Assembly (NCBI RefSeq): GCF_000519045.1
Contig: NZ_KI912532.1
Span: 2,967,867-3,031,866 of the forward strand
Direction of reading: 5' to 3'
Source of the DNA: Dechloromonas agitata is5
Lineage (GTDB): Bacteria > Pseudomonadota > Gammaproteobacteria > Burkholderiales > Rhodocyclaceae
Length of the DNA: 64,000 nt
Under the pieces are notes generated by a model, which was given only the letters and a program-made list of their open reading frames with translations, was not told the DNA's origin and did no database searches. Below, in pieces: positions 13-13,577 of this stretch (its first letter is position 1; the number at the start of each line of letters is the position of its first letter). The position numbers and the translations under genes are program-made.

Positions 13-450
13 TCAGTGAACCCGGGACCAGCCCGAGGTAATTCGAATCCGAAATGCCTTTTCGTCCTGCGGAGTAACAGATTCTGCTATGGGGCGGACG
101 ATCCGAATTTTGTAACGAGACCCCTCTTCTCTGGATATTTCGAAGGTATCGCCTTCACGCGCCCTAACTTCACGAAAATACTTCGTCATATAGGTGATAC
201 GATATTCATTCCGTGTGCCGTTTGGGTCATGAAGTCGATTGTTGTAGTAGACGAACCTGAAACGACGTAAGCCCCCAACTTCATCCTCACATTCGATCCA
301 TGCATCAGGGTTCTTCACTGCAGGATCGAGATGCGGCAGGAAAGCCAGAAGCTCCGCTTCCGATTTTGGAACGAGAATTCCACCTTGGTGTCCGCCGGTC
401 GAGCCCACATCGTTGGCGCTAAGCATCTTGCTGAAAGTCTTTTTCGTCAT
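13..450 (-). CDS. Stand-alone EcoRII-N-like DNA-recognition domain protein
   Basis: Complete 145-residue protein. Near the N-terminus it has LSANDVGSTGGHQGG followed by ILVPKS, and a YYNNRLHDPNGTRNEYRIT segment. These correspond to the signature stretch (LSANDTGATGGHQ, then YYNSR and TRNEKRIT) of the N-terminal effector-DNA-binding domain of the restriction enzyme EcoRII. The C-terminal nuclease domain of EcoRII is absent. The natural reading is a sequence-recognition subunit whose cleavage partner is encoded elsewhere in the operon. The start overlaps the SNF2 stop by four bases (ATGA) and follows GAGGAAAAT, so it is translationally coupled as the last visible gene of a minus-strand operon. 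Domain assignment is by eye from motif similarity; the role is inferred. Confidence 0.75.
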   Translation of the reverse strand: MTKKTFSKMLSANDVGSTGGHQGGILVPKSEAELLAFLPHLDPAVKNPDAWIECEDEVGGLRRFRFVYYNNRLHDPNGTRNEYRITYMTKYFREVRAREGDTFEISREEGSRYKIRIVRPIAESVTPQDEKAFRIRITSGWSRVH

Positions 451-2267
451 ATTTTCCTCGGTGCAATTTCGAGTGCACGTCTCAGATCGGTTGCATCCCT
501 AGATGAAATGGGGACACTTTCATTCGCCAGTTCGCTTTTCCAAAGGGATCGATCAATCATCACTTCCTCCACAGTGTCCTTATAGAAAAGACGATATACC
601 GTAACGGGTTGCGTTTGACCTCGACGATGGGCTCTAGCGCTTGCTTGGGCTTCCAGCGCCGGGTTCCAAACTGGAGTGAAGTGGATTACTACCGTCGCAG
701 CAGTAATGTTGAGGCCGGCTCCGGCAGCTTTGGGGTTCAATACCAAGCATGCTGGGCCATCATGCGCCGCGAAGGCATCGATTATCGGCTGCCGCCTATC
801 TTGCGGAGTCGAGCCATTGATTGCGCCCCAATGGACGTCACGAAACCCGGAGAAAGCATCTATCAACAAATCGCCGATCCGGTTAAACAATGAAAAAACA
901 ATTACCTTTCGCCCATTGAAAAATGCCTCTCGAATTAGATCTGTTGCACGTTCCATTTTTTGGGTCATTAGAGGATATGCGCGCGCACGCACGATTTCCG
1001 CATCCTCACCGTGGGTGTCGTTTTCATCAGCGCGTCGGAGCCATGGATGGGCGCAAACCAATTGCAGCTGAAGTGTTGCCACCAACGCACCTGCAACAGG
1101 ATACTTGGCTAGAGTTTGTTTCCTGACCTGCAGGTAGTGCTCCGCCAGCAGATCGTCCAGTTCGAGGGGCACATCGATGTTGATGCGTTCGGGTAAATCA
1201 CTAGCAACGTCAGCAACTCGGCGCCTAAGGATCAATGGGTCTGTGAAACGCCCAATAGCCTGTGCCGAATCAATATTGTCGGGATACGCCACTTCGAAGT
1301 CATGGCGTGAGCCAAGCAGGCCTGGAATGGCAAAATCAGCCAGAGACCAAAGGTCCAAAAGCCCGTTCTCTACCGGTGTCCCTGTCATGGGAATAGCTCG
1401 CCGGCGGGGGATGGTCACGATGGCCTGCCGCCGGTTCGAGTCCGGATTCTTGATTGCCTGTGCCTCGTCGCAGATCACCCATGACCATTCGAAAGAAGAA
1501 AAGATTGAGATGTCATTGACCATCGTGTCATAGGTAGTGATCACGACACTGGTCTTTTGAAGTCCCCGATAGACACCGGCCCTGTCCGGACCTCGATGCA
1601 CCTTGACAGATATGCCTGCAGCGAAGCGCGCGAACTCCCGTACCCAGTTGGCTATAAGGCTTGTAGGGCAAACGATCAAGGCCGGAGCTTCGGTCTGCGG
1701 CGGTTCAATCAGCAGCAGTGCAATGATCTGGAGAGTTTTACCCAATCCCATCTCGTCGGCAAGGATCAGCCCCCCGGTATGGCAGATGGTTTCCCACATC
1801 CAACGGACACCGCGCGCCTGATACGGAAAAAGGACCGCAGTCAGACCGGGAACTGCAAAATTGTCATCGAGATTCTCAGCTGCAACCCGTCCCGCCTTGA
1901 GGAACGACTCACTAGGTTCTACGCCTATCGCGGTGTCCGTATTGCGCATCAGGCGGATCGCCTCGCTGTAGGGCATATTGTCCGGGTCTAAACCATTCAG
2001 CATCTCAGCGAATAGGCGGGCCGCATCGCGTGGTAGAGGACGGATCGTAGTGCCATCCAAGACCCAAGCGTGGCCATTGCCAGGGGCCAAGTGGATGATT
2101 CTGTTTCCGCCCTGCACACGGACACCTGCAAGACGCGCCACGATGTTCCGTCCGATCTTATCGATGAGAATGACTGGTGAGATCACGCGTTCCGAAAGCG
2201 TGAAGCCCTCGGGTGGCCTTACACGCAGCTCCTCGACAGTCTCCGGCAGGCCGGAAATATCAGTCAC
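447..2267 (-). CDS. SNF2-family DEAD/DEAH helicase (defence-type)
   Basis: Superfamily 2 Snf2-type ATPase that probably translocates on double-stranded DNA. Visible motifs are Walker A in GLILADEMGLGKTLQ (about residue 170), the DEAQ box in CDEAQAIKNP, motif III in MTGTPVENGLLDLW, and motif VI in SARAHRRGQTQPVTVYRL near the C-terminus. It is short for the family (about 606 residues) and has no extra nuclease or chromatin domain. A TTG start at 2279 is possible, but the GTG at 2267 is preceded by GAGG six bases upstream and is preferred. It overlaps the HNH gene upstream and the EcoRII-N gene downstream, so all are likely made as one set. Inferred role: motor of a restriction-like complex with the GHKL ATPase and HNH nuclease. 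Confidence 0.9.
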   Translation of the reverse strand: MTDISGLPETVEELRVRPPEGFTLSERVISPVILIDKIGRNIVARLAGVRVQGGNRIIHLAPGNGHAWVLDGTTIRPLPRDAARLFAEMLNGLDPDNMPYSEAIRLMRNTDTAIGVEPSESFLKAGRVAAENLDDNFAVPGLTAVLFPYQARGVRWMWETICHTGGLILADEMGLGKTLQIIALLLIEPPQTEAPALIVCPTSLIANWVREFARFAAGISVKVHRGPDRAGVYRGLQKTSVVITTYDTMVNDISIFSSFEWSWVICDEAQAIKNPDSNRRQAIVTIPRRRAIPMTGTPVENGLLDLWSLADFAIPGLLGSRHDFEVAYPDNIDSAQAIGRFTDPLILRRRVADVASDLPERINIDVPLELDDLLAEHYLQVRKQTLAKYPVAGALVATLQLQLVCAHPWLRRADENDTHGEDAEIVRARAYPLMTQKMERATDLIREAFFNGRKVIVFSLFNRIGDLLIDAFSGFRDVHWGAINGSTPQDRRQPIIDAFAAHDGPACLVLNPKAAGAGLNITAATVVIHFTPVWNPALEAQASARAHRRGQTQPVTVYRLFYKDTVEEVMIDRSLWKSELANESVPISSRDATDLRRALEIAPRKI

Positions 2268-3084
2268 GGCAAGCCTCAATCAAGTTTCTGAGTTCTTCGA
2301 TACTGATCGGGATCGGACGCTTCGTGTGGACCGCTCGGTGACAATTCGGGCACAGCGGTACCAGATCCGTTCGCGGATCGTACGGACGGGGTTTCACAAG
2401 CAACCCTACGGGTTCAAGGTGATGAACCTCAATTATCGAACCGGCATCTCCATACGTCAGCCTTGGCTCCGCACCGCAAGCCGCACATTTCTCGCCATGG
2501 AGGCGGATGCAAAGAAGGCGGTTCCGTGGGTTGCGTTCCCGCCGTTTCACGACAGACCGCAGTATGGCTCCTTCAAAAGCCGGTACTTCGTCGTCCGCAG
2601 GCTCTTCGATAACATCATAGCCAATGAGTTCTGCCATAGCAGCCATCATCGGCACGATTACATCTCTACATGTGGCGATGATCGCTGCGTCCTCCTGTGG
2701 ATGCTCCTGAGCACGTATTGTCGCGGTCATCCTAAAGGTACCACCAGTAACGTTCCACTCGGCAAGACTTTGCCCGGGAGTTTCGACCTCGACGTCTGCC
2801 CGGATCGACCCCACCAATGCTCGCGCCAGATCAATATCCTCCGGTACGGCATTCCTGATCTGCGCAAGAACCTCTCCAGAGAAGTTGCCAAATGACAGTT
2901 CCACACGGTGCCCCTTCAGTCCAAAAGGGCGAAGATCGGCGACCGGACCATGCTTTTCATCCAGATCGTCAAACCAGATCCGTAGGCCGGAGCGAAGACC
3001 ACTTCGGTCGACAGCTGCTGCCATAGCGGCGCCGGTCCCCTCTTCCAACTCCCTAAGAATCAGCTCCTTTTTGCCTGAAATCAT
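2260..3084 (-). CDS. HNH endonuclease with N-terminal unknown domain
   Basis: 274-residue protein with an HNH nuclease domain in its last 90 residues. The zinc-binding pairs CAAC and CPNC flank IIEVHHLEPVG, and LCPNCHRAVH carries the final catalytic His. This is the McrA-like HNH layout, expected to make metal-dependent DNA breaks. The first 180 residues match nothing I recognise and could bind a partner or DNA. The ATG at 3084 lies one base after the ATPase stop (TGAGATG), which indicates coupling; an in-frame GTG at 3102 is the alternative. Being the only recognisable nuclease in the operon, it is the likely effector of the system. Confidence 0.88.
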   Translation of the reverse strand: MISGKKELILRELEEGTGAAMAAAVDRSGLRSGLRIWFDDLDEKHGPVADLRPFGLKGHRVELSFGNFSGEVLAQIRNAVPEDIDLARALVGSIRADVEVETPGQSLAEWNVTGGTFRMTATIRAQEHPQEDAAIIATCRDVIVPMMAAMAELIGYDVIEEPADDEVPAFEGAILRSVVKRRERNPRNRLLCIRLHGEKCAACGAEPRLTYGDAGSIIEVHHLEPVGLLVKPRPYDPRTDLVPLCPNCHRAVHTKRPIPISIEELRNLIEACRD

Positions 3085-4657
3085 CTCAGTCCGCTTCGTC
3101 ACCGTTCAGCTCGTCCGGCTCGGGATCAGGCACTTTGCGCAACAACTTTCTTAGGTTGTTTGAGATTTCGGTTCGGATGTCCTCGAAGATGGGTTCCAAC
3201 TCTTCATTGGTATTGTTCTGTTCAGCAACTGCGAAAGCCCAAAGAAGCAGGTCCATCCCTTCCACCGCGTAGCCGTTGGCCGCCGCCCGCTGGTAGATCT
3301 TCTGGTAGAAGTCATGATGCTTGTTGAGCAGAACCGCTGGCATATGACCGCTGTCGCCGGCACTTCGTAAAGCGGGCTGCCAAAGCTCACCTGTAGTGAT
3401 GTCCTCAACTGCGTCGACAAATACTGTGTCAATACTAACGTGGCTTTGAATTGCCAATTTGATCGTGATCTTGGGACCTTGATTGTTAGCAATAACAGCC
3501 GATTGCGTCGCTGGATCAACCGAGGTTACTTGTGGTTTCTGCGCATTGTTTGTATCAGCAATGTTCTTATTTGCACTGGTGTGGTCGATCCCATGAGAGT
3601 TTGCGTGCTCACGATTCTTCCTGCGATAGCGCTGCCCCGCTTCACGGTAGATAGGTTGAAGCAGAGTGTGTAGGCCCTCTGCCAGTTCAGGGTGGAAGAG
3701 AATGCGGGACTTCTTCACGTCAATCCGGAATGCATCGTCCAGCTCATGACCGAAGTCAAATTCGATACGCAGCAACGAATAGTGCGGTTCGGGCACACCG
3801 AAAACTTCCATCCATCCGCCATCTTGGATCAGGCGACCCTCGCGATATACGTAAAAGCCCTGCGCGCGGTTCGCAATACGCGCATGGGTCTTTTCTTCTT
3901 CCTTGGTCATATCATTGCGATGCGGAAGAATCCATGCCCTTATTCTTGCGGTCTCCACCGAACCATCCAGCAATTCCACCTCGATGATTTGCTTCTTCTC
4001 CGGCAGGACTTGTTCTGAACGTGCCGGATAGAACGGGTTCCATGGTTCGATGGGATTCCCATTGATAACGATATTAATGTCACGCTCCCGTTCGTCCGCC
4101 TTATCGAGGAAGCGATGAAAAACGAGAGAAAGATGCTTCGCAAGACTGTCCGCGAGCCTACCGATGGCGGCCATCTCCTTGGCTCCGCCGGGTTCATATT
4201 CCTTAGTCAGAATTCGGTCGCATTTTTCCCAGATGACAAGGGTTCCCTTGGCGCCACACAATTCATCAAACATTTCACGTTCATCGGCGGTAATCGGCTC
4301 CCGAAGCATTGCCCATACCCCTTCATCGGCAACATGTTCGAGGTCCCAAGCAAGCTTTTCTAATTCTTGATTGGATGCCTTGCGTGAAATAAGGGTGTAC
4401 TTAAGGCAGACAGAACTGGATGCAGTTTTCAACCCTAGGCCGAATTTTCCGAGACTTTCCGGATTTTCGCGAGCTGGAGCACCATAGCGCATTGCTGCAT
4501 GAATACCTTTCGCGTCCATACCATGGCCATTGTCTCCAAAGTAGACTAATTTGCGTCCGTCATCGCGCAGAACGATTTCGACATTGATCGTGTGGTAATC
4601 CCCCCGGCCAATAAAGGCGGTCAGAGGTAGAATTTTCTCGTAAAGGGAGAGTTCTGC

Positions 4658-4921
4658 ATGAAGAAGTCGAAGTTTTCGGACAGCCAGATCATCGAGGCGT
4701 TGAAGCGGGTCGAGGGTGGGCTATCGGTGCCGGAGTTGTGCCGGGAGTTGGGAATCAGCTCGGCGACGTTCTACAAATGGCGGGCGAAATACGGCGGCCT
4801 GGACGTGTCCATGATGGCCCGGATGAAGGAGTTGGAAGCCGAGAATGCGCGGCTCAAAAAGATGTACGCCGAGGAGCGCCTGAAGGCGGATATTCTGAAG
4901 GAGTACCTGGGAAAAAAGTAG
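4658..4921 (+). CDS. IS3-family transposase OrfA
   Basis: 87 residues with the typical IS3 OrfA layout: an N-terminal helix-turn-helix ([18 protein letters not shown]) followed by a leucine-rich coiled coil ([20 protein letters not shown]) that mediates multimerisation. It binds the element ends and is the N-terminal part of the OrfAB transposase. The last codons lie on a slippery heptamer (A AAA AAG just before the TAG at 4919-4921), where a -1 shift would continue into orfB. It begins after AAGGGAGAG. Confidence 0.93.
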
Positions 4922-4944
4922 GTCGGCCATCTCGCCGGCGTGAG

Positions 4945-5745
4945 ATGGCCAAGGAAGTGGTGGCCGGAAAGCGAATTTCGATCCGCTTGGCCTGCGACAT
5001 TTTCCAGGTGAGCGAGACCTGCTATCGGTATTCGGCCAAGAAGAATGCCGAGAATGAGGAAATCGCCGACTGGCTGATGCGGCTAACCGACAACCACCGC
5101 AACTGGGGATTTGGGCTGTGCTTCCTGTACCTGCGCAACGTGAAGGGCTTTGGTTGGAATCACAAGCGGGTGTATCGGATTTACCGGGAGTTGGAATTGA
5201 ATCTGCGGATCAAGCCCAGGAAACGGCTGGGGCGGGAGAAACCGGAACCGCTGGCCGTGCCGACTGCCATCAACCAGGTGTGGTCTATGGATTTCATGCA
5301 TGACCAGCTCGAAGACGGGCGCTGTTTCCGGTTGTTCAATGTGATCGATGACTTCAACCGGGAAGCCCTGGGCATCGAGATCGATTTCTCGCTGCCGGCC
5401 GAGAGGGTGATCCGTGCCCTGGAGCAGATCATCGAATGGCGGGGGAAACCAGCCGCCATTCGATGTGACAATGGCCCGGAGAACATCAGCGGCCTGGTGC
5501 AAAACTGGGCAGAAAAGCGGCAGATCAAGATGGATTACATCCAGCCGGGCAAGCCCCAGCAGAACGCCTACGTCGAGCGCTTCAACCGGACAGTGCGCTA
5601 CGAGTGGCTATCGCAATATTGCTGGGCAGACCTCGATGAAGTCCAGCTCTTCGCCACCCAGTGGATGTACGACTACAATCACGACCGCCCAAACATGGCC
5701 TTGGGCGGCATCACGCCAAAACAGCGGCTGGCCATGGCCGCGTAG
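4945..5745 (+). CDS. IS3-family transposase OrfB (DDE integrase)
   Basis: Catalytic half of the element. Integrase-fold DDE residues are visible as D in [10 protein letters not shown] in [10 protein letters not shown] and E in [11 protein letters not shown]. The N-terminal HTH_21-type region starts at [10 protein letters not shown]. It is expected to be made mainly as an OrfAB fusion through the -1 slippage site at the end of orfA, because the in-frame sequence [12 protein letters not shown] links the two directly. The open frame extends back to 4738, but that part is orfA read in another frame. The copy here has Gly where the second copy has Val (GREKPEP versus VREKPEP). Confidence 0.93.
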
Positions 5746-5908
5746 CTCTACTTCTGATCGCCCCTAATTCTGGGGGGATTACCGTGTCCGCCTTAGCAGC
5801 GATCGAGTTGTCAATGATGTCCGCGGCGGCTGTCTTGACGTTATAACCTGTGTCGCGAAGACCAAAAATCAGTCGTGGAGCGTCTGGTTCATTGATAAGG
5901 TCGTTCAT

Positions 5909-6612: not shown

Positions 6613-7575
6613 TTACAACGAAAATTTATTAATCGCTCTGGCGGCGAGCACTATGGAACGATCATCCAGGCTTGTTCGTTCCCACATGGCGGGTTCATGA
6701 AAGGCAAGGGCAATTCTATCGATAGTGAATCTCTGTTCCGCCACGTCATCGAACCATTCGCCAAGGCGACTTGCCACTTTGCTACCGTCGTGGGAAACCA
6801 GTCGTTCCGCTCCACCGTCACTCATCAGGGCGATACCGAAAACTTCGCTGGCGGACAACACACCGAATTGGACGTCGCTTGTGCTTGCCGTATCAACAAA
6901 ACAGGTCTGATTGGCAAACTCGCCCTTTGCGCTTGCCTGGTTACCTAGCGACCACAATCCTTCGGAATTCCTGGCCACAATGGCACCATCACCGACTTTC
7001 CACCAGAAGACATGGCGCTCGCCGATGACGACAACCTGCAGGGTTGCGCGAACGTCACGCACATCGCGTCGCTCCGTGCTCGCCAGGTCAGCAAGAAGCC
7101 CCTTCGCGTGCATCCGCAGCCTTTCTGCCCAGCGCGTCGACTGTGCCTGCGATGCGTCGTCATCGCCATCCAGCCAGGACGCGAGGTCATCTTCCAAGGT
7201 TCGCAAAAAACGGGTGATCCCGATGACCAGCGCCTGGGCACCACGCTCGCTGATGGCCGCAGAGCCCGCGCCGTCGCTTAAACCGAGAATCGGACGCGGC
7301 AAGTTGCGAAAGGCCACGGCGTCTTGGCAGGGTATGCCCTTGCGCCGGTGAGCCAATCCGATGACGGTGTCGCCACAAAGCTGCCAGTCCGTCATGGGTA
7401 TCTTCACTGCTGCTGGCGCGCTGGTGGATGCCGGTGTATCGACTTCAGGTATGAGCAGTGGTGTGTCAGCTTCAATATCTGACATGGGGCAGGCATATGA
7501 CGCTGGCGACGTGGTTGCGTTCGTGGCGACGACTTCGGCTTTACGCCGAAATAGGGGCTTGTGCGTGCGTGCCAT
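6613..7575 (-). CDS. PP2C-type protein phosphatase of a TerY-P triad
   Basis: 320-residue PP2C-like Ser/Thr phosphatase. Metal-binding motifs are LGLSDGAGS near residue 100, GDGAIV in the middle, LMSDGGAE and DDRSIVLAAR near the end. The first 60 residues are Pro/Thr/Ala-rich and probably flexible. ATG 7575 is preceded by GGGGGAG and lies one base after the vWA gene stop; a longer upstream frame is out of context. With the adjacent vWA protein and kinase it forms the kinase/phosphatase/vWA trio that Aravind and colleagues called TerY-P, linked to stress response and DNA processing. It presumably reverses phosphorylation by the neighbouring kinase. Confidence 0.88.
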   Translation of the reverse strand: MARTHKPLFRRKAEVVATNATTSPASYACPMSDIEADTPLLIPEVDTPASTSAPAAVKIPMTDWQLCGDTVIGLAHRRKGIPCQDAVAFRNLPRPILGLSDGAGSAAISERGAQALVIGITRFLRTLEDDLASWLDGDDDASQAQSTRWAERLRMHAKGLLADLASTERRDVRDVRATLQVVVIGERHVFWWKVGDGAIVARNSEGLWSLGNQASAKGEFANQTCFVDTASTSDVQFGVLSASEVFGIALMSDGGAERLVSHDGSKVASRLGEWFDDVAEQRFTIDRIALAFHEPAMWERTSLDDRSIVLAARAINKFSL

Positions 7576-7576
7576 G

Positions 7577-8233
7577 TTAGACACTCCCCCAGCTGTCCAC
7601 GCTCGGAAGATGCACCGAGGCGTCGGACGAAGTGCTGGCCGAAACCCGCGCCATAGATGCCGACAGCCACTGGAACAACTCGCGGAATTTGAGTCCGTCA
7701 AGCGCCACTGCGGGCTTGCTGGAGAACTGCGATAGCACACTCAGATCGGCACCCTGCACCCCGATGGGCAGGCTGACCAGCTTGCGCTGGGCGGACAGCG
7801 CGCTGGCACGCTGTGCGGCATCTTGCCAGCCATAGTCCGGCGCCCCGTCGCTGATCAGCACCAACCACGGCTGGTAGTAGGGCACGCCAGCATCGCGGTA
7901 GGATTTCTTGCGCGCTTCCAGGTCGTCAAGGGCCATGCGTGTTGCTTGCCCGAGCGGAGTGCCTCCACTTGCATCGAGCGGGGAAAATCCCACAATCTGC
8001 TCGACACCGATGAACGACTGAATGCAGTCAGCCAAACCGCCAGCGGTATAGACCGCCAAATCCACCGACCAGCGCGCCAAGTCATCGCGTTTCACTTCGT
8101 CGATGAATAACTCGATGCCGGCGTTCAATTGCTCGATGGGCTGGCCGGACATGGAGCCGGAGGTATCCAGCACCAGCGCCACCGGGCAGCGCGGCGTAGG
8201 ATTGTCGATGAGGTCATCGTGCGATTCGTTCAT
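7577..8233 (-). CDS. vWA domain protein, TerY-like
   Basis: 218 residues forming essentially one von Willebrand A domain. The MIDAS motif is DTSGSMSG near residue 25, with the following T in SGGTPLGQ and D in LISDGAPDYGW, so metal-dependent ligand binding looks intact. No signal peptide or membrane segment, hence cytoplasmic, as in TerY. Two starts are possible: ATG 8233 (after AAGGAG) and ATG 8278 (also after AAGGAG, adding an MFAFANF extension). I prefer 8233 because the MIDAS strand then begins at the usual distance. It lies between the kinase and phosphatase genes and probably scaffolds or is phosphorylated by them. Confidence 0.88.
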   Translation of the reverse strand: MNESHDDLIDNPTPRCPVALVLDTSGSMSGQPIEQLNAGIELFIDEVKRDDLARWSVDLAVYTAGGLADCIQSFIGVEQIVGFSPLDASGGTPLGQATRMALDDLEARKKSYRDAGVPYYQPWLVLISDGAPDYGWQDAAQRASALSAQRKLVSLPIGVQGADLSVLSQFSSKPAVALDGLKFRELFQWLSASMARVSASTSSDASVHLPSVDSWGSV

Positions 8234-8292
8234 GGTCGTCTCCTTGGGCGTGTTCATGAAATTGGCAAAAGCAAACATGGTGTTCTCCTTGT

Positions 8293-9300
8293 TCAAGCCG
8301 CAATCGGCTGAGAAATGGACTGGGTGCCCCGGTATTCCTTGGTCTTGGGGTTGGCGGGCTTGATCTGGGTGTCGTGCCACCCCTTGCCAAGTTCGCGCTG
8401 GTAGAGCTTGAGGAAGTCGATCCACTCCGGGATGGACGTGCGCGCAGACGCATTCGGAGCGCCTTCCTTGAAGGTGCCGATGAGTTGCTCCTTCAACTTG
8501 AAGGGTAGATGACTCCAGATGTTGAACCACGGCCCCTTTGGGATACCGCCACCACCCTGGCCGTAGGGAAAGTAGCCCTTGCGGATGTTCTCCACGGGGC
8601 CGGCACCGCCGACCACGTCGTAGGGATGACGGCCGAGCATCAGTGCCTTGAAGAGTAGGATGGCCAATGAAAAGTACTCGCTTTCCAGTGTCCGGTTGAC
8701 CTTGCCAAGCTCTTTGCCCTGTAACTCGGGAGCAAGCATGTCGGGGGCAGCCACCGGGCAGCGGAATGTCTTGCCCGCCGCGTTGACCTGCCAGCTGTCG
8801 CAATCGATCAGCGTGACCGTATCGCTATTCGGATCACACAGAAAGTTGGCCAGGTTGTAATCGCCGACCATCACGCCCGCCGTGTGCAGCTCCTGCAGTG
8901 TGCCGAGCAGACTCAGCAGATAGGCCACCACAGCCGGGCGATCAAGGTTAGGGAACTGCTCACGATAGGCCATGGCATGGGCGAGCACATTCATGCGCAC
9001 TCCGGCAGCCTTACGCATGGCATAGCCACGCCACTGACCACGCTCATCGAACACAGAAAATCGCGGCCAAGCCAGACCCGGATGCTGCTTGAGGCTGACG
9101 AGCTTGGGATCGCTGCTCATGGCATCGATCTTGGCGCGCAGGGTGTCGGCCCGCTTTTGCAGCACTTGCGGGTGGTACAGTTTGACTACCACGCCCGGAA
9201 ACCGGGGGACTGCATGGACAGCCGCTTCGCCGCCCTGGGCGAACGGAGTGTCGGACAACTGGACGGATTCTCCTGTGGCGCTGCGAACGGTGAGGCTCAT
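8293..9300 (-). CDS. Protein kinase of a TerY-P triad
   Basis: 335-residue eukaryotic-type kinase. ATP lysine in VVVKLYHP, catalytic loop in GVMVGDYNLANFLCD (Asp and Asn kept, HRD replaced by VGD), and metal site in LIDCDSW (DxD in place of DFG). The C-terminal lobe includes PELQGKE and a tail rich in Lys and Gly. The altered HRD/DFG forms are usual for kinases linked to vWA/PP2C triads. No transmembrane segment, so a cytosolic kinase. First of the triad in transcription order (kinase, vWA, PP2C), 33 bases downstream of the 284-residue protein gene, so the four genes are probably one operon. Confidence 0.88.
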   Translation of the reverse strand: MSLTVRSATGESVQLSDTPFAQGGEAAVHAVPRFPGVVVKLYHPQVLQKRADTLRAKIDAMSSDPKLVSLKQHPGLAWPRFSVFDERGQWRGYAMRKAAGVRMNVLAHAMAYREQFPNLDRPAVVAYLLSLLGTLQELHTAGVMVGDYNLANFLCDPNSDTVTLIDCDSWQVNAAGKTFRCPVAAPDMLAPELQGKELGKVNRTLESEYFSLAILLFKALMLGRHPYDVVGGAGPVENIRKGYFPYGQGGGGIPKGPWFNIWSHLPFKLKEQLIGTFKEGAPNASARTSIPEWIDFLKLYQRELGKGWHDTQIKPANPKTKEYRGTQSISQPIAA

Positions 9301-10867: not shown

Positions 10868-10929
10868 TGAGGTGCCCCCCGTAATCAGTGCCACCGGCAA
10901 TTTAGTAAAGTCCGTTTTCGAGAAGGAGA

Positions 10930-11199
10930 ATGGACTTGAAGAAGCGGTTTTCAGAAGAGCAGATCATCGGTTTTTTGCAGCAGGCGGAAGCCGGCGTGGC
11001 GATCAAGGAACTGTGCCGGCAACACGGCTTCAGTGACGCCTCGTTCTACAACTGGCGGGCGAAATTCGGCGGCATGTCAGTTCCGGATGCGAAGCGCCTG
11101 AAGGAACTGGAAGCCGAGAACGCCAAGCTCAAACGCCTACTGGCCGAATCGATCCTTGATGCCGAAGCTCTCAAAGCGGCCTTGGGCCGAAAGCGCTGA
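10930..11199 (+). CDS. IS3-family transposase OrfA
   Basis: 89 residues: helix-turn-helix ([18 protein letters not shown]) and a leucine-heptad coiled coil ([18 protein letters not shown]). It binds the ends of the second-type IS3 element and is the N-terminal part of the fusion transposase. Start ATG follows AGAAGGAGA. It stops 27 bases before the first good OrfB start, and the usual -1 frameshift would bridge the two. Confidence 0.92.
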
Positions 11200-11225
11200 G
11201 CCCCCAGCAAAAGCGTGAGTCAGTC

Positions 11226-12056
11226 ATGGTGATGCGGAAAGCGACAGCAATTTCCCAACGCCGTGCCTGCCAGCTGGTGGGTTTGTCACGCACGGTCCTG
11301 CATTACGTATCGAAGGCGCAGCCGGAGAACGAGCAGTTGCAAGCCAGGCTGGTCGAACTGGCCGGCGAGCGCCGCCGGCTCGGCTATCGCCGCTTGCATG
11401 CGCTGGTTCGGCGAGAGGGCGTTCGAGCCAATCACAAACGGATTTATCGGCTCTACAGTGATGCCGGTCTGTCAGTTCGGCGCCGCAAAAAGCGACATGG
11501 TGTGGCTGTTGAGCGGCAGGCACTGGAACGCCCTACCGAGCCCAACCAAGTTTGGTCGATGGATTTTGTCAGTGACGCGCTGGCCAATGGCCGCCGGATC
11601 AAGGTGCTGACCATCGTCGATGATTTCAGCAAGGAGGCCATCGATCTCGCGGTCGACTTCGGCATTTCAGGCCATTACGTTACGCGTGTTCTTGATCAGG
11701 CGGCTCGCTTCCGGGGCTACCCCAAGGCCATTCGAACTGACCAGGGACCAGAATTTACCGGCAAAGCGCTCGACCAGTGGGCCTGCCAGCATGGCGTTCA
11801 GCTCAAACTGATCCAGGCCGGGAAACCCACGCAGAACGCGTTCATCGAGAGCTTCAACGGACGCTTCCGAGATGAGTGCCTGAATGACTATTGGTTTACG
11901 AGCTTGCCACAGGCTCGTATCCTGATCGCCGCCTGGCGCCGGGACTACAACCAGCATCGGCCGCACAGCGCATTGAATTATCAAACCCCGGCAGAGTTCG
12001 CGGCCGAGCATCGGGCAACCACCTCTGCCCAGCCAGCCGCCGAAGAATGTCTTTAA
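11226..12056 (+). CDS. IS3-family transposase OrfB (DDE integrase)
   Basis: 276 residues. An HTH_21-like region ([13 protein letters not shown]) is followed by an integrase core with D in [10 protein letters not shown] in [10 protein letters not shown] and E in [14 protein letters not shown]. The DDE triad is complete and the C-terminal motif [10 protein letters not shown] is typical. It catalyses strand transfer of the element. No frameshift or stop interrupts it. Confidence 0.92.
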
Positions 12057-12146
12057 CGGTACAACCCAAGGACTTTTACTAAAACGCCCTTGGCACTAAA
12101 ACCGGGGGCACCTCACTGGCGATTGGAAGCCAACTAATGCTGACAC

Positions 12147-13577
12147 CTATACAACCCGTCCAATCTTGGAAATTAACCCGCAGTCATTCGGCTGTTCAAA
12201 CCCCGAGGCCCCCTCAACATAAGACTTCAAAATCCGGCTGATGGAAGAAACCACGCCCTTCTCTGCACTGATGAACCCAACGGGGAAGCTGACGGGGTAT
12301 GAGTCGCGAAGCGAGACGTGATACACGACCACTACGAATTCCCCTTCGAAATGCAGCACCTCAACACTGCCACCAAGGAACCCCTCAATGAGTCCGTGAA
12401 CCTTGCTGGCGTTGGGTTCAAACTCCCTTTTCCACTGTTGTGCTGCCCTATGGTCATCGGGACCGCCGACGGGCAAATAGATGGTCGGCGAATAGAGCTT
12501 CTTATCCTTCGTACTCGCCTGCTCAAGAAGCTGACTGACTCTGACTTGCAGATTGCTGCTCATTCCCCAATACGGGTCGCTGGGCGCGACCCAAAGAAAT
12601 GGGGTCTGTCCCATGTCGGTCTTGCTCTCCTGTCTTGACTTGATAACCGGAGCCAAGTAATTCTGGAGCAGTTTCCAATTTGCTGACGAGTAGATTGGTC
12701 CGATAAAGGTGGTTCTTTTCTTCTGGCTATTGGATTCAAGCTTTGCCAAGTCCTCGAAGAATTGAAGGCTCACGGAACTGCCCTTCGAGTCGAAGAGTTT
12801 CAGCGTGTCACCGTCCCCGATTTCGATCATGATTTTTGCAATCTCACCGAAATTGCTGGGTCGTGCCAGATGATCCAGTTCGAGAGAAATCTGCTCATGG
12901 ACGTAATCTGAGCTTTTCAGTTTCTCAAAATCCTCTCGCTCGACATTTCGCCCTTCCTCGTCCACCTGGAAATGAACCGGCAGTCTGACGGGCATATGCT
13001 TAATCTTGTTCACCGAGTTCACGGTGTAGACGTTCGGCGAGTCCTTGTCGTCTTGGGTCAGTGCCTTGGAAAGGAACCCCTTCTGCAAGATTTCATGGAA
13101 TTGACGCTGGAAATGCTTTCTTACGTGAGTCTGGCTGCAAGATGCATTCTCGTCGTCGACCTTGATTGGAATGCCCGCCTTCCACTTGTCCGAATATTTG
13201 TCTTTGCCAAGACAAGAGAAGGTTGCGAGGTCGAAAGACAAGCAAGCCGTACTGTCTCGAAGCAGCGACAAACGCGGAACCTCACCGAGTTCAGTGAAGT
13301 AGCTGCTCGATTTTTCCGTAAGAGTCAGGCGACCGTTTTCAGACAGAGTCAATTCATCCCGCTCCACGAGGTCATCAATCGCCTCTTGAACTTCCTTGCG
13401 CGAGAAGCCGAAGAAGGTTGCGACCTGCGACATGGACATTGGAGCAAGGTGGATAAGTCGGAGAACGAATTCCCGAACGAACGGCAGCCCTTTTTCAGTG
13501 ATGTACGAGAAATGGATATTGAAGCGTTGCGCTGGCAACAGGAAGTCAATCTCGTGATAAATCGTCGTGTTTTCCAT
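12147..13577 (-). CDS. Winged-helix protein paired with SF1 helicase, function unknown
   Basis: 476 residues. Residues 35-95 look like a winged-helix DNA-binding domain (MSMSQVATFFGFSRKEVQEA, then LTLSENGRLTLTEK). The rest is mixed alpha/beta without a motif I can name. A TFIGPIYSSANWK...NYLAPVI stretch and a later VEVLHFEGEFVVVVYHVS could form a phospholipase-D-like or receptor-like fold, but no HKD motif is seen. ATG 13577 follows AAGGTGACGACA and lies 10 bases after the helicase stop, so the two genes are one operon and probably one system. A longer frame from 13628 lies inside the helicase gene. Intact, although its partner is truncated. Confidence 0.6.
   Translation of the reverse strand: MENTTIYHEIDFLLPAQRFNIHFSYITEKGLPFVREFVLRLIHLAPMSMSQVATFFGFSRKEVQEAIDDLVERDELTLSENGRLTLTEKSSSYFTELGEVPRLSLLRDSTACLSFDLATFSCLGKDKYSDKWKAGIPIKVDDENASCSQTHVRKHFQRQFHEILQKGFLSKALTQDDKDSPNVYTVNSVNKIKHMPVRLPVHFQVDEEGRNVEREDFEKLKSSDYVHEQISLELDHLARPSNFGEIAKIMIEIGDGDTLKLFDSKGSSVSLQFFEDLAKLESNSQKKRTTFIGPIYSSANWKLLQNYLAPVIKSRQESKTDMGQTPFLWVAPSDPYWGMSSNLQVRVSQLLEQASTKDKKLYSPTIYLPVGGPDDHRAAQQWKREFEPNASKVHGLIEGFLGGSVEVLHFEGEFVVVVYHVSLRDSYPVSFPVGFISAEKGVVSSISRILKSYVEGASGFEQPNDCGLISKIGRVV

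Follow-up and report, generated by a model that had tools for sequence, protein, structure and literature searches.

We analyzed a stretch of 64,000 nucleotides of Dechloromonas agitata is5 (referred to as the window; G000:C1:2967867-3031866, part of the 3.63-Mb single-contig genome), the left end of which carries the genes for a MORC-type GHKL ATPase, an HNH nuclease, a SNF2-type helicase/translocase and a stand-alone EcoRII-N domain. These genes belong to a real and conserved restriction locus of the kind outlined in 2008 (see below), to which the present study adds a survey of relatives, the coevolution of the locus in two arms and a concrete prediction of the target. With a probability of roughly 60%, we favor the reading that the four proteins constitute an ATP-dependent restriction arm against unmethylated CCWGG, which is able to replace EcoRII beside a Dcm-type methyltransferase and Vsr.

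The four genes and the adjoining modification arm

The EcoRII-N protein (13..450, minus strand; 145 amino acids), a B3-like DNA-recognition domain, matched PF09217 with 56.3 bits (cut-off 25) and aligned to the EcoRII structures 3hqf and 1na6 (E-values of 1e-6 and 2e-5, respectively); a weak match to RAV1 was also obtained (E-value of 0.0095). The SNF2-type protein (447..2279, minus strand; 610 amino acids; PF00176 with 186 bits, plus PF00271) possesses Walker A, DEAQ and other SF2 motifs. The HNH nuclease (2260..3084, minus strand; PF01844 with 23.0 bits, cut-off 21.4) bears an N-terminal domain of unknown fold and comprises 274 amino acids counted from ATG, or 280 (2260-3102) if GTG at 3102 is taken as the start. 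The MORC gene was found in two pieces on the minus strand. The 3' piece (3086..4593) encodes the rest of the ATPase domain, the S5 domain and the C-terminal region, and matched PF13589 with 39.3 bits (cut-off 25) and the MzaB model with 109 bits. The 5' piece (5784..5908) supplies the start codon and the first GHKL motif, and its translation corresponds to the N-terminus of the intact homologues up to the break. All four families named in the original prediction were thus recovered on the minus strand with Pfam matches. Its description of a four-gene operon with overlaps of a few bases stood in part: the EcoRII-N and SNF2 genes overlap by 4 bases and, given the listed TTG and GTG starts, the SNF2/HNH and HNH/GHKL overlaps amount to 20 and 17 bases, respectively, but the GHKL gene is split by an insertion element.

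The MORC-like nature of the ATPase was borne out as well. The MORC motif GhXhhpXXRhl in the S5 domain (Iyer et al., 2008) is present as GFYVYREGRLI in the 3' piece, and its G, Y, R, R and I columns were invariant in an alignment of 40 intact homologues from other genomes. When a structural model of the intact homologue of a Pseudomonas locus (L003) was subjected to Foldseek, the top 17 rows were MORC2/3/4 and SMCHD1 with TM-scores of 0.40-0.59, and MutL structures ranked below the MORCs. As modeled, the GHKL fold of this homologue is nearer to that of eukaryotic MORC than to those of MutL or Hsp90.

No methyltransferase had been seen beside the four genes, which is true of the window but not of the DNA to its left, where one had been proposed to be looked for. 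In a fetched stretch spanning both sides of window base 1 (L002, of which position 12000 is window base 1), we found a Dcm-type C5 methyltransferase gene with an N-terminal HTH (L002:7318-8580), starting ~4.7 kb left of the window, followed by the genes for Vsr (L002:8584-9054) and an EcoRII-C endonuclease of 464 amino acids (L002:9069-10463; PF09019 with 103 bits), all on the plus strand. The modification arm and the four-gene arm on the minus strand are convergent. The endonuclease contains EcoRII-C, but no PF09217 match was found in its N-terminal region; it may therefore recognize a different site or be under different regulation.

Distribution of the four genes and coevolution in two arms

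We surveyed a collection of one genome per species (84,980 species) with an HNH alignment as the seed and found at least 57 loci, a lower bound because the search used two peptide patterns. All four genes were present in 52 of the 57 loci, or 53 of 58 when the Dechloromonas locus is included; the others were three loci with the HNH domain only (L057-L059) and two on contigs starting at the HNH gene (L037 and L053). In the 53 complete loci, the four families are clustered in 4.7 to 4.9 kb of DNA, a linkage beyond chance expectation. The co-occurrence sought by the original prediction was therefore found, in the form of a conserved unit with restriction-type content. The gene order is MORC-HNH-SNF2-EcoRII-N in 52 of the complete loci and SNF2-EcoRII-N-MORC-HNH in the remaining one (L056), an order shared by three plasmids. 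A methyltransferase was detected in 52 complete loci (the only one without it, L006, lies on a contig of 7.3 kb that ends 186 bases before the MORC frame) and Vsr in 48.

The four-gene unit is rare and patchy. The HNH alignment matched 5 of 76 genomes of the genus and 22 of 369 genomes of the class, at full length only in the Dechloromonas agitata is5 genome in either case, and another member of the genus carries a diverged MORC-HNH pair (L061). Among 398 genomes sampled from the phylum, 12 had an EcoRII-N match, 10 of them in longer frames beside Dcm and two solo, namely the Dechloromonas genome and G737 (apparently the genome of L010, and not counted as independent). A plasmid search seeded with EcoRII-N yielded 13 records, nine of which had a solo EcoRII-N, invariably with an HNH match within 3 kb as judged from coordinates. 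Five of the nine were opened, and all five encode a helicase, an ATP-binding protein, HNH, Dcm and Vsr; EcoRII is present in three and absent in two, and the ATP-binding protein is split in two in Sphingomonas. An intact cluster of Dcm, Vsr, MORC, HNH, SNF2 and EcoRII-N with no EcoRII is found on the Pseudomonas putida T25-27 plasmid NZ_CP043577, adjacent to an AIPR-like frame. Apart from the solo EcoRII-N, a second small stand-alone protein of a different subtype, whose resemblance to EcoRII-type endonucleases is confined to their N-terminal domain, was observed at L004:13728-14201, L006:4942-5394, L007:13249-13656 and L009:1538-1948.

An EcoRII-C endonuclease was identified in just five of the complete loci (L002, which is the Dechloromonas locus, L003, L008, L048 and L056; small EcoRII-N-like open reading frames were excluded when judging the absence of EcoRII), indicating that ordinary EcoRII is usually absent. 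The four genes and Dcm occurred with no EcoRII-C in the fetched DNA in 47 of the 53 complete loci, and L006 had neither Dcm nor EcoRII-C. These counts bear on the idea that the four genes help EcoRII, which requires more than one site, to gather two or more sites, the cut being made by EcoRII itself. The five loci and the three SNF2-EcoRII-N-MORC-HNH plasmids, all with an EcoRII-C endonuclease, fit such an accessory role, but 48 of the 53 complete loci and two of the five opened plasmids show no EcoRII-C protein in the fetched DNA, and we regard this explanation as quite unlikely.

Two further proteins accompany the four genes in subsets of the complete loci. AIPR was found in 14, and a protein with sigma-70 region 4 and HHH, encoded on the same strand after EcoRII-N, in 19 (e.g., L015:13003-15273, L040:13044-14702 and L049:13021-15219). 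The frames of the latter comprise about 550-990 amino acids (shorter in L048 and in L025, where the stretch ends) and matched no family above the cut-off save small motifs, with weak PADLOC matches to PglW and MzaA; the protein may serve as a regulator or an effector. According to the available part of PMC9523054, MZA (mzaABCDE) is a validated system; it resembles the loci studied here in having an MzaB-related MORC ATPase and, as in many of the relatives, MzaE-like AIPR and a sigma-like protein. The intact MORC homologue of L003 matched MzaB with 189.2 bits, an AIPR neighbor reached 261 bits against MzaE, and one of the sigma-like proteins gave a weak match to MzaA (E-value of 0.008). As MZA contains a related MzaB, there is a precedent for defense by a relative. 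The core might then sense foreign DNA and leave it to AIPR or the sigma-like protein to execute or control the response, as in abortive infection or regulated defense. Nevertheless, neither protein was detected in the Dechloromonas locus, the MzaB match stays far below the NCBIfam equivalog cut-off of 850 bits, and none of AIPR, the sigma-like protein and EcoRII-C was seen in the fetched DNA of 16 complete loci (in five of these, L006, L011, L023, L031 and L051, the contig ends less than 3 kb from the core). An MZA-like mode of action is unlikely in our view.

The separation of the locus into a restriction arm and a modification arm was examined by correlating distance matrices of the proteins in 32 non-redundant loci, chosen from 47 six-gene loci by removing near-identical ones and leaving out L056. 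The pairs within the core (MORC, HNH, SNF2 and EcoRII-N) gave r of 0.68-0.83 and the Dcm-Vsr pair 0.68, whereas the core proteins against Dcm or Vsr gave 0.25-0.48 (0.25-0.33 for Vsr). The maxima of 1000 permutations ranged from 0.26 to 0.40, and four of the eight cross pairs exceeded their own maximum; the tie between the core and Dcm-Vsr is thus loose but not absent. EcoRII-N, though short, still tracked the other core proteins (r of 0.68-0.75), so that the contrast with Vsr is not simply a matter of protein length. Altogether, the four core proteins coevolve, and Dcm and Vsr form a second, loosely tied coevolving pair. The same values weigh on the possibility that the MutL-like MORC, the helicase, HNH and Vsr mend deaminated 5-methylcytosine at Dcm sites instead of restricting DNA. 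The kinship of MORC with MutL and the frequent presence of Vsr (48 of the 53 complete loci) are consistent with repair. However, Vsr tracks Dcm and not the core, it is absent in L048 as well as in L028, L041 and L051 (in which Dcm is present with DNA on both sides), and Dcm-Vsr pairs free of the core exist in Aeromonas pE31B and E. coli. We consider repair very unlikely.

Arrangements of Dcm-Vsr-EcoRII with none of the four genes in view were found in Aeromonas pE31B and in L082, L083 and L085-L089 (stretches of only 3.2 kb), and the same is reported for phage KL3 in the accessible part of the source (PMC3091744). In a third arrangement, L003 and L090 carry an EcoRII-N-HNH_2 fusion (38% identical) next to Dcm and Vsr, which supports the idea of an EcoRII-N reader working with an HNH cutter. 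Dcm, Vsr, the fusion, the EcoRII-C endonuclease and the four-gene set adjoin one another in the Pseudomonas locus (L003:3200-13075), amounting to a single modification arm accompanied by three candidate restriction arms.

Predicted target and relation to known systems

The local methyltransferase and Vsr share 52% (over 394 columns) and 45% identity with Dcm and Vsr of E. coli, respectively. The target-recognition region resembled E. coli Dcm more closely than the remainder of the protein did in 48 of 52 methyltransferases (medians of 67% versus 61%; 67% and 63% in the Dechloromonas locus). On the side of the reader, N28, D29, G31, H36, T93, R94, E96 and R98 (EcoRII numbering) were kept in all 60 solo EcoRII-N proteins, and Y41, K92 and K97 were not kept in the window protein; we take H36, Y41, K92, R94, E96, K97 and R98 to matter for DNA binding by EcoRII. 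Judged from these sequences, CCWGG is the best prediction of the target, with CCNGG as a possible alternative. A methylation-dependent, type IV-like enzyme, in which the HNH protein acts on modified DNA like McrA, is difficult to reconcile with these features. Host Dcm would create self-targets in 52 of the 53 loci, and the kept EcoRII-N positions belong to the reader of an enzyme that is blocked by methylation. We regard this as the least probable of the explanations considered.

Under the favored reading of an ATP-dependent restriction arm, the Dcm-type methyltransferase would mark CCWGG and Vsr would repair deaminated sites, while the detached EcoRII-N would find unmethylated CCWGG. The SNF2 motor would translocate along or remodel DNA, the MORC dimer may close on DNA in an ATP-driven manner, acting as a clamp or forming loops, and the cut would be made by the HNH protein. 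The four proteins would work as a complex, presumably in defense against phages. That the four-gene set is a distinct machine, in which reader, motor, clamp and nuclease are each a separate subunit and which is swappable with EcoRII beside a shared Dcm-Vsr, is a proposal to which we assign slightly less than even odds. If true, the loss of either type of restriction arm could have left behind orphan dcm-vsr pairs like the one in E. coli. In plants and animals, MORC ATPases function in gene silencing, and predictions of bacterial relatives in restriction loci date back to 2008; the minimal cluster of six genes (Dcm, Vsr, MORC, HNH, SNF2 and EcoRII-N) with the predicted CCWGG makes the action of a bacterial MORC on DNA testable.

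EcoRII cuts without ATP. The EcoRII-type Dcm-Vsr-EcoRII systems of Aeromonas pE31B and, as far as the available text tells, phage KL3 share the modification arm and the family of the site-reading domain with the four-gene loci but read and cut with a single polypeptide and have no MORC, SNF2 or HNH.

The combination of the four parts had been taken as possibly undescribed, a claim that does not hold. Iyer, Abhiman and Aravind predicted a second type of MORC restriction-modification operon comprising MORC with the GhXhhpXXRhl motif, a SWI2/SNF2 helicase and an HNH or EcoRII nuclease, with a VP1/RAV DNA-binding protein in some and a cytosine methylase and Vsr frequent in the neighborhood, and proposed DNA looping between recognition and cleavage sites (PMC2292703, available part). 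The MORC motif, SNF2, HNH plus EcoRII-N, Dcm, Vsr and EcoRII-C are all at the Dechloromonas locus, and we found no structural difference from the operon as described there, except that the Dechloromonas MORC gene is broken. The same part of the paper contains no two-arm survey, target or name. In the literature searched, no experiment on SNF2-type bacterial MORC restriction loci was found.

The SNF2 protein is related to the motors of Zorya (ZorD), DISARM (DrmD) and DpdE, but its scores fell far short of the NCBIfam equivalog cut-offs (232 against 1500 bits for ZorD, 42-77 against 610-950 for DrmD and 41 against 500 for DpdE; others were also missed), and no further Zorya, DISARM or Dpd match was found among the scanned window proteins. 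PADLOC protein models matched ZorD/DpdE, MzaB, REase_II and mREase_IV. The family models show single-protein resemblances only.

Interruption of the MORC gene and a possible mobile island around the locus

An IS3-like insertion element of 1190 bp (4594..5783, plus strand) separates the 5' and 3' pieces of the MORC gene, which is therefore not intact. The element has 12-bp perfect terminal repeats, a 4-bp direct repeat (ACAC) and two open reading frames on the plus strand (orfA, 4658-4921; orfB, with its frame ending at 5745) with HTH_Tnp_1 and rve/rve_3 domains. Unlike the MORC gene, the EcoRII-N, SNF2 and HNH frames are open with conserved motifs. Because the MORC gene is broken, the restriction arm is probably off in this strain; the Dcm, Vsr and EcoRII-type endonuclease frames of the same locus are open. 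Decay of a locus of this kind was also observed in a Sphingomonas melonis plasmid, in which the ATPase and endonuclease genes each appear to lie in two frames (L076:8400-10021 and 10873-12206).

Two more transposase units, similar in general type to that inside the MORC gene, lie nearby on the plus strand, one between the EcoRII endonuclease and EcoRII-N genes (L002:11077-11940) and the other at window positions 10930-12056. Further left, a tRNA-Val gene (L002:5607-5682) and an integrase gene (L002:5869-7083, plus strand) suggest a mobile island around the locus. Directly right of the MORC gene, the minus strand of the window (6613-9300) encodes a PP2C phosphatase (6613-7740), a VWA domain (7577-8803) and a kinase-like frame (8293-9300; PF00069 score under its cut-off), a trio that presumably resembles the TerY-P-type triad and represents a separate conflict-related cassette on the same island.
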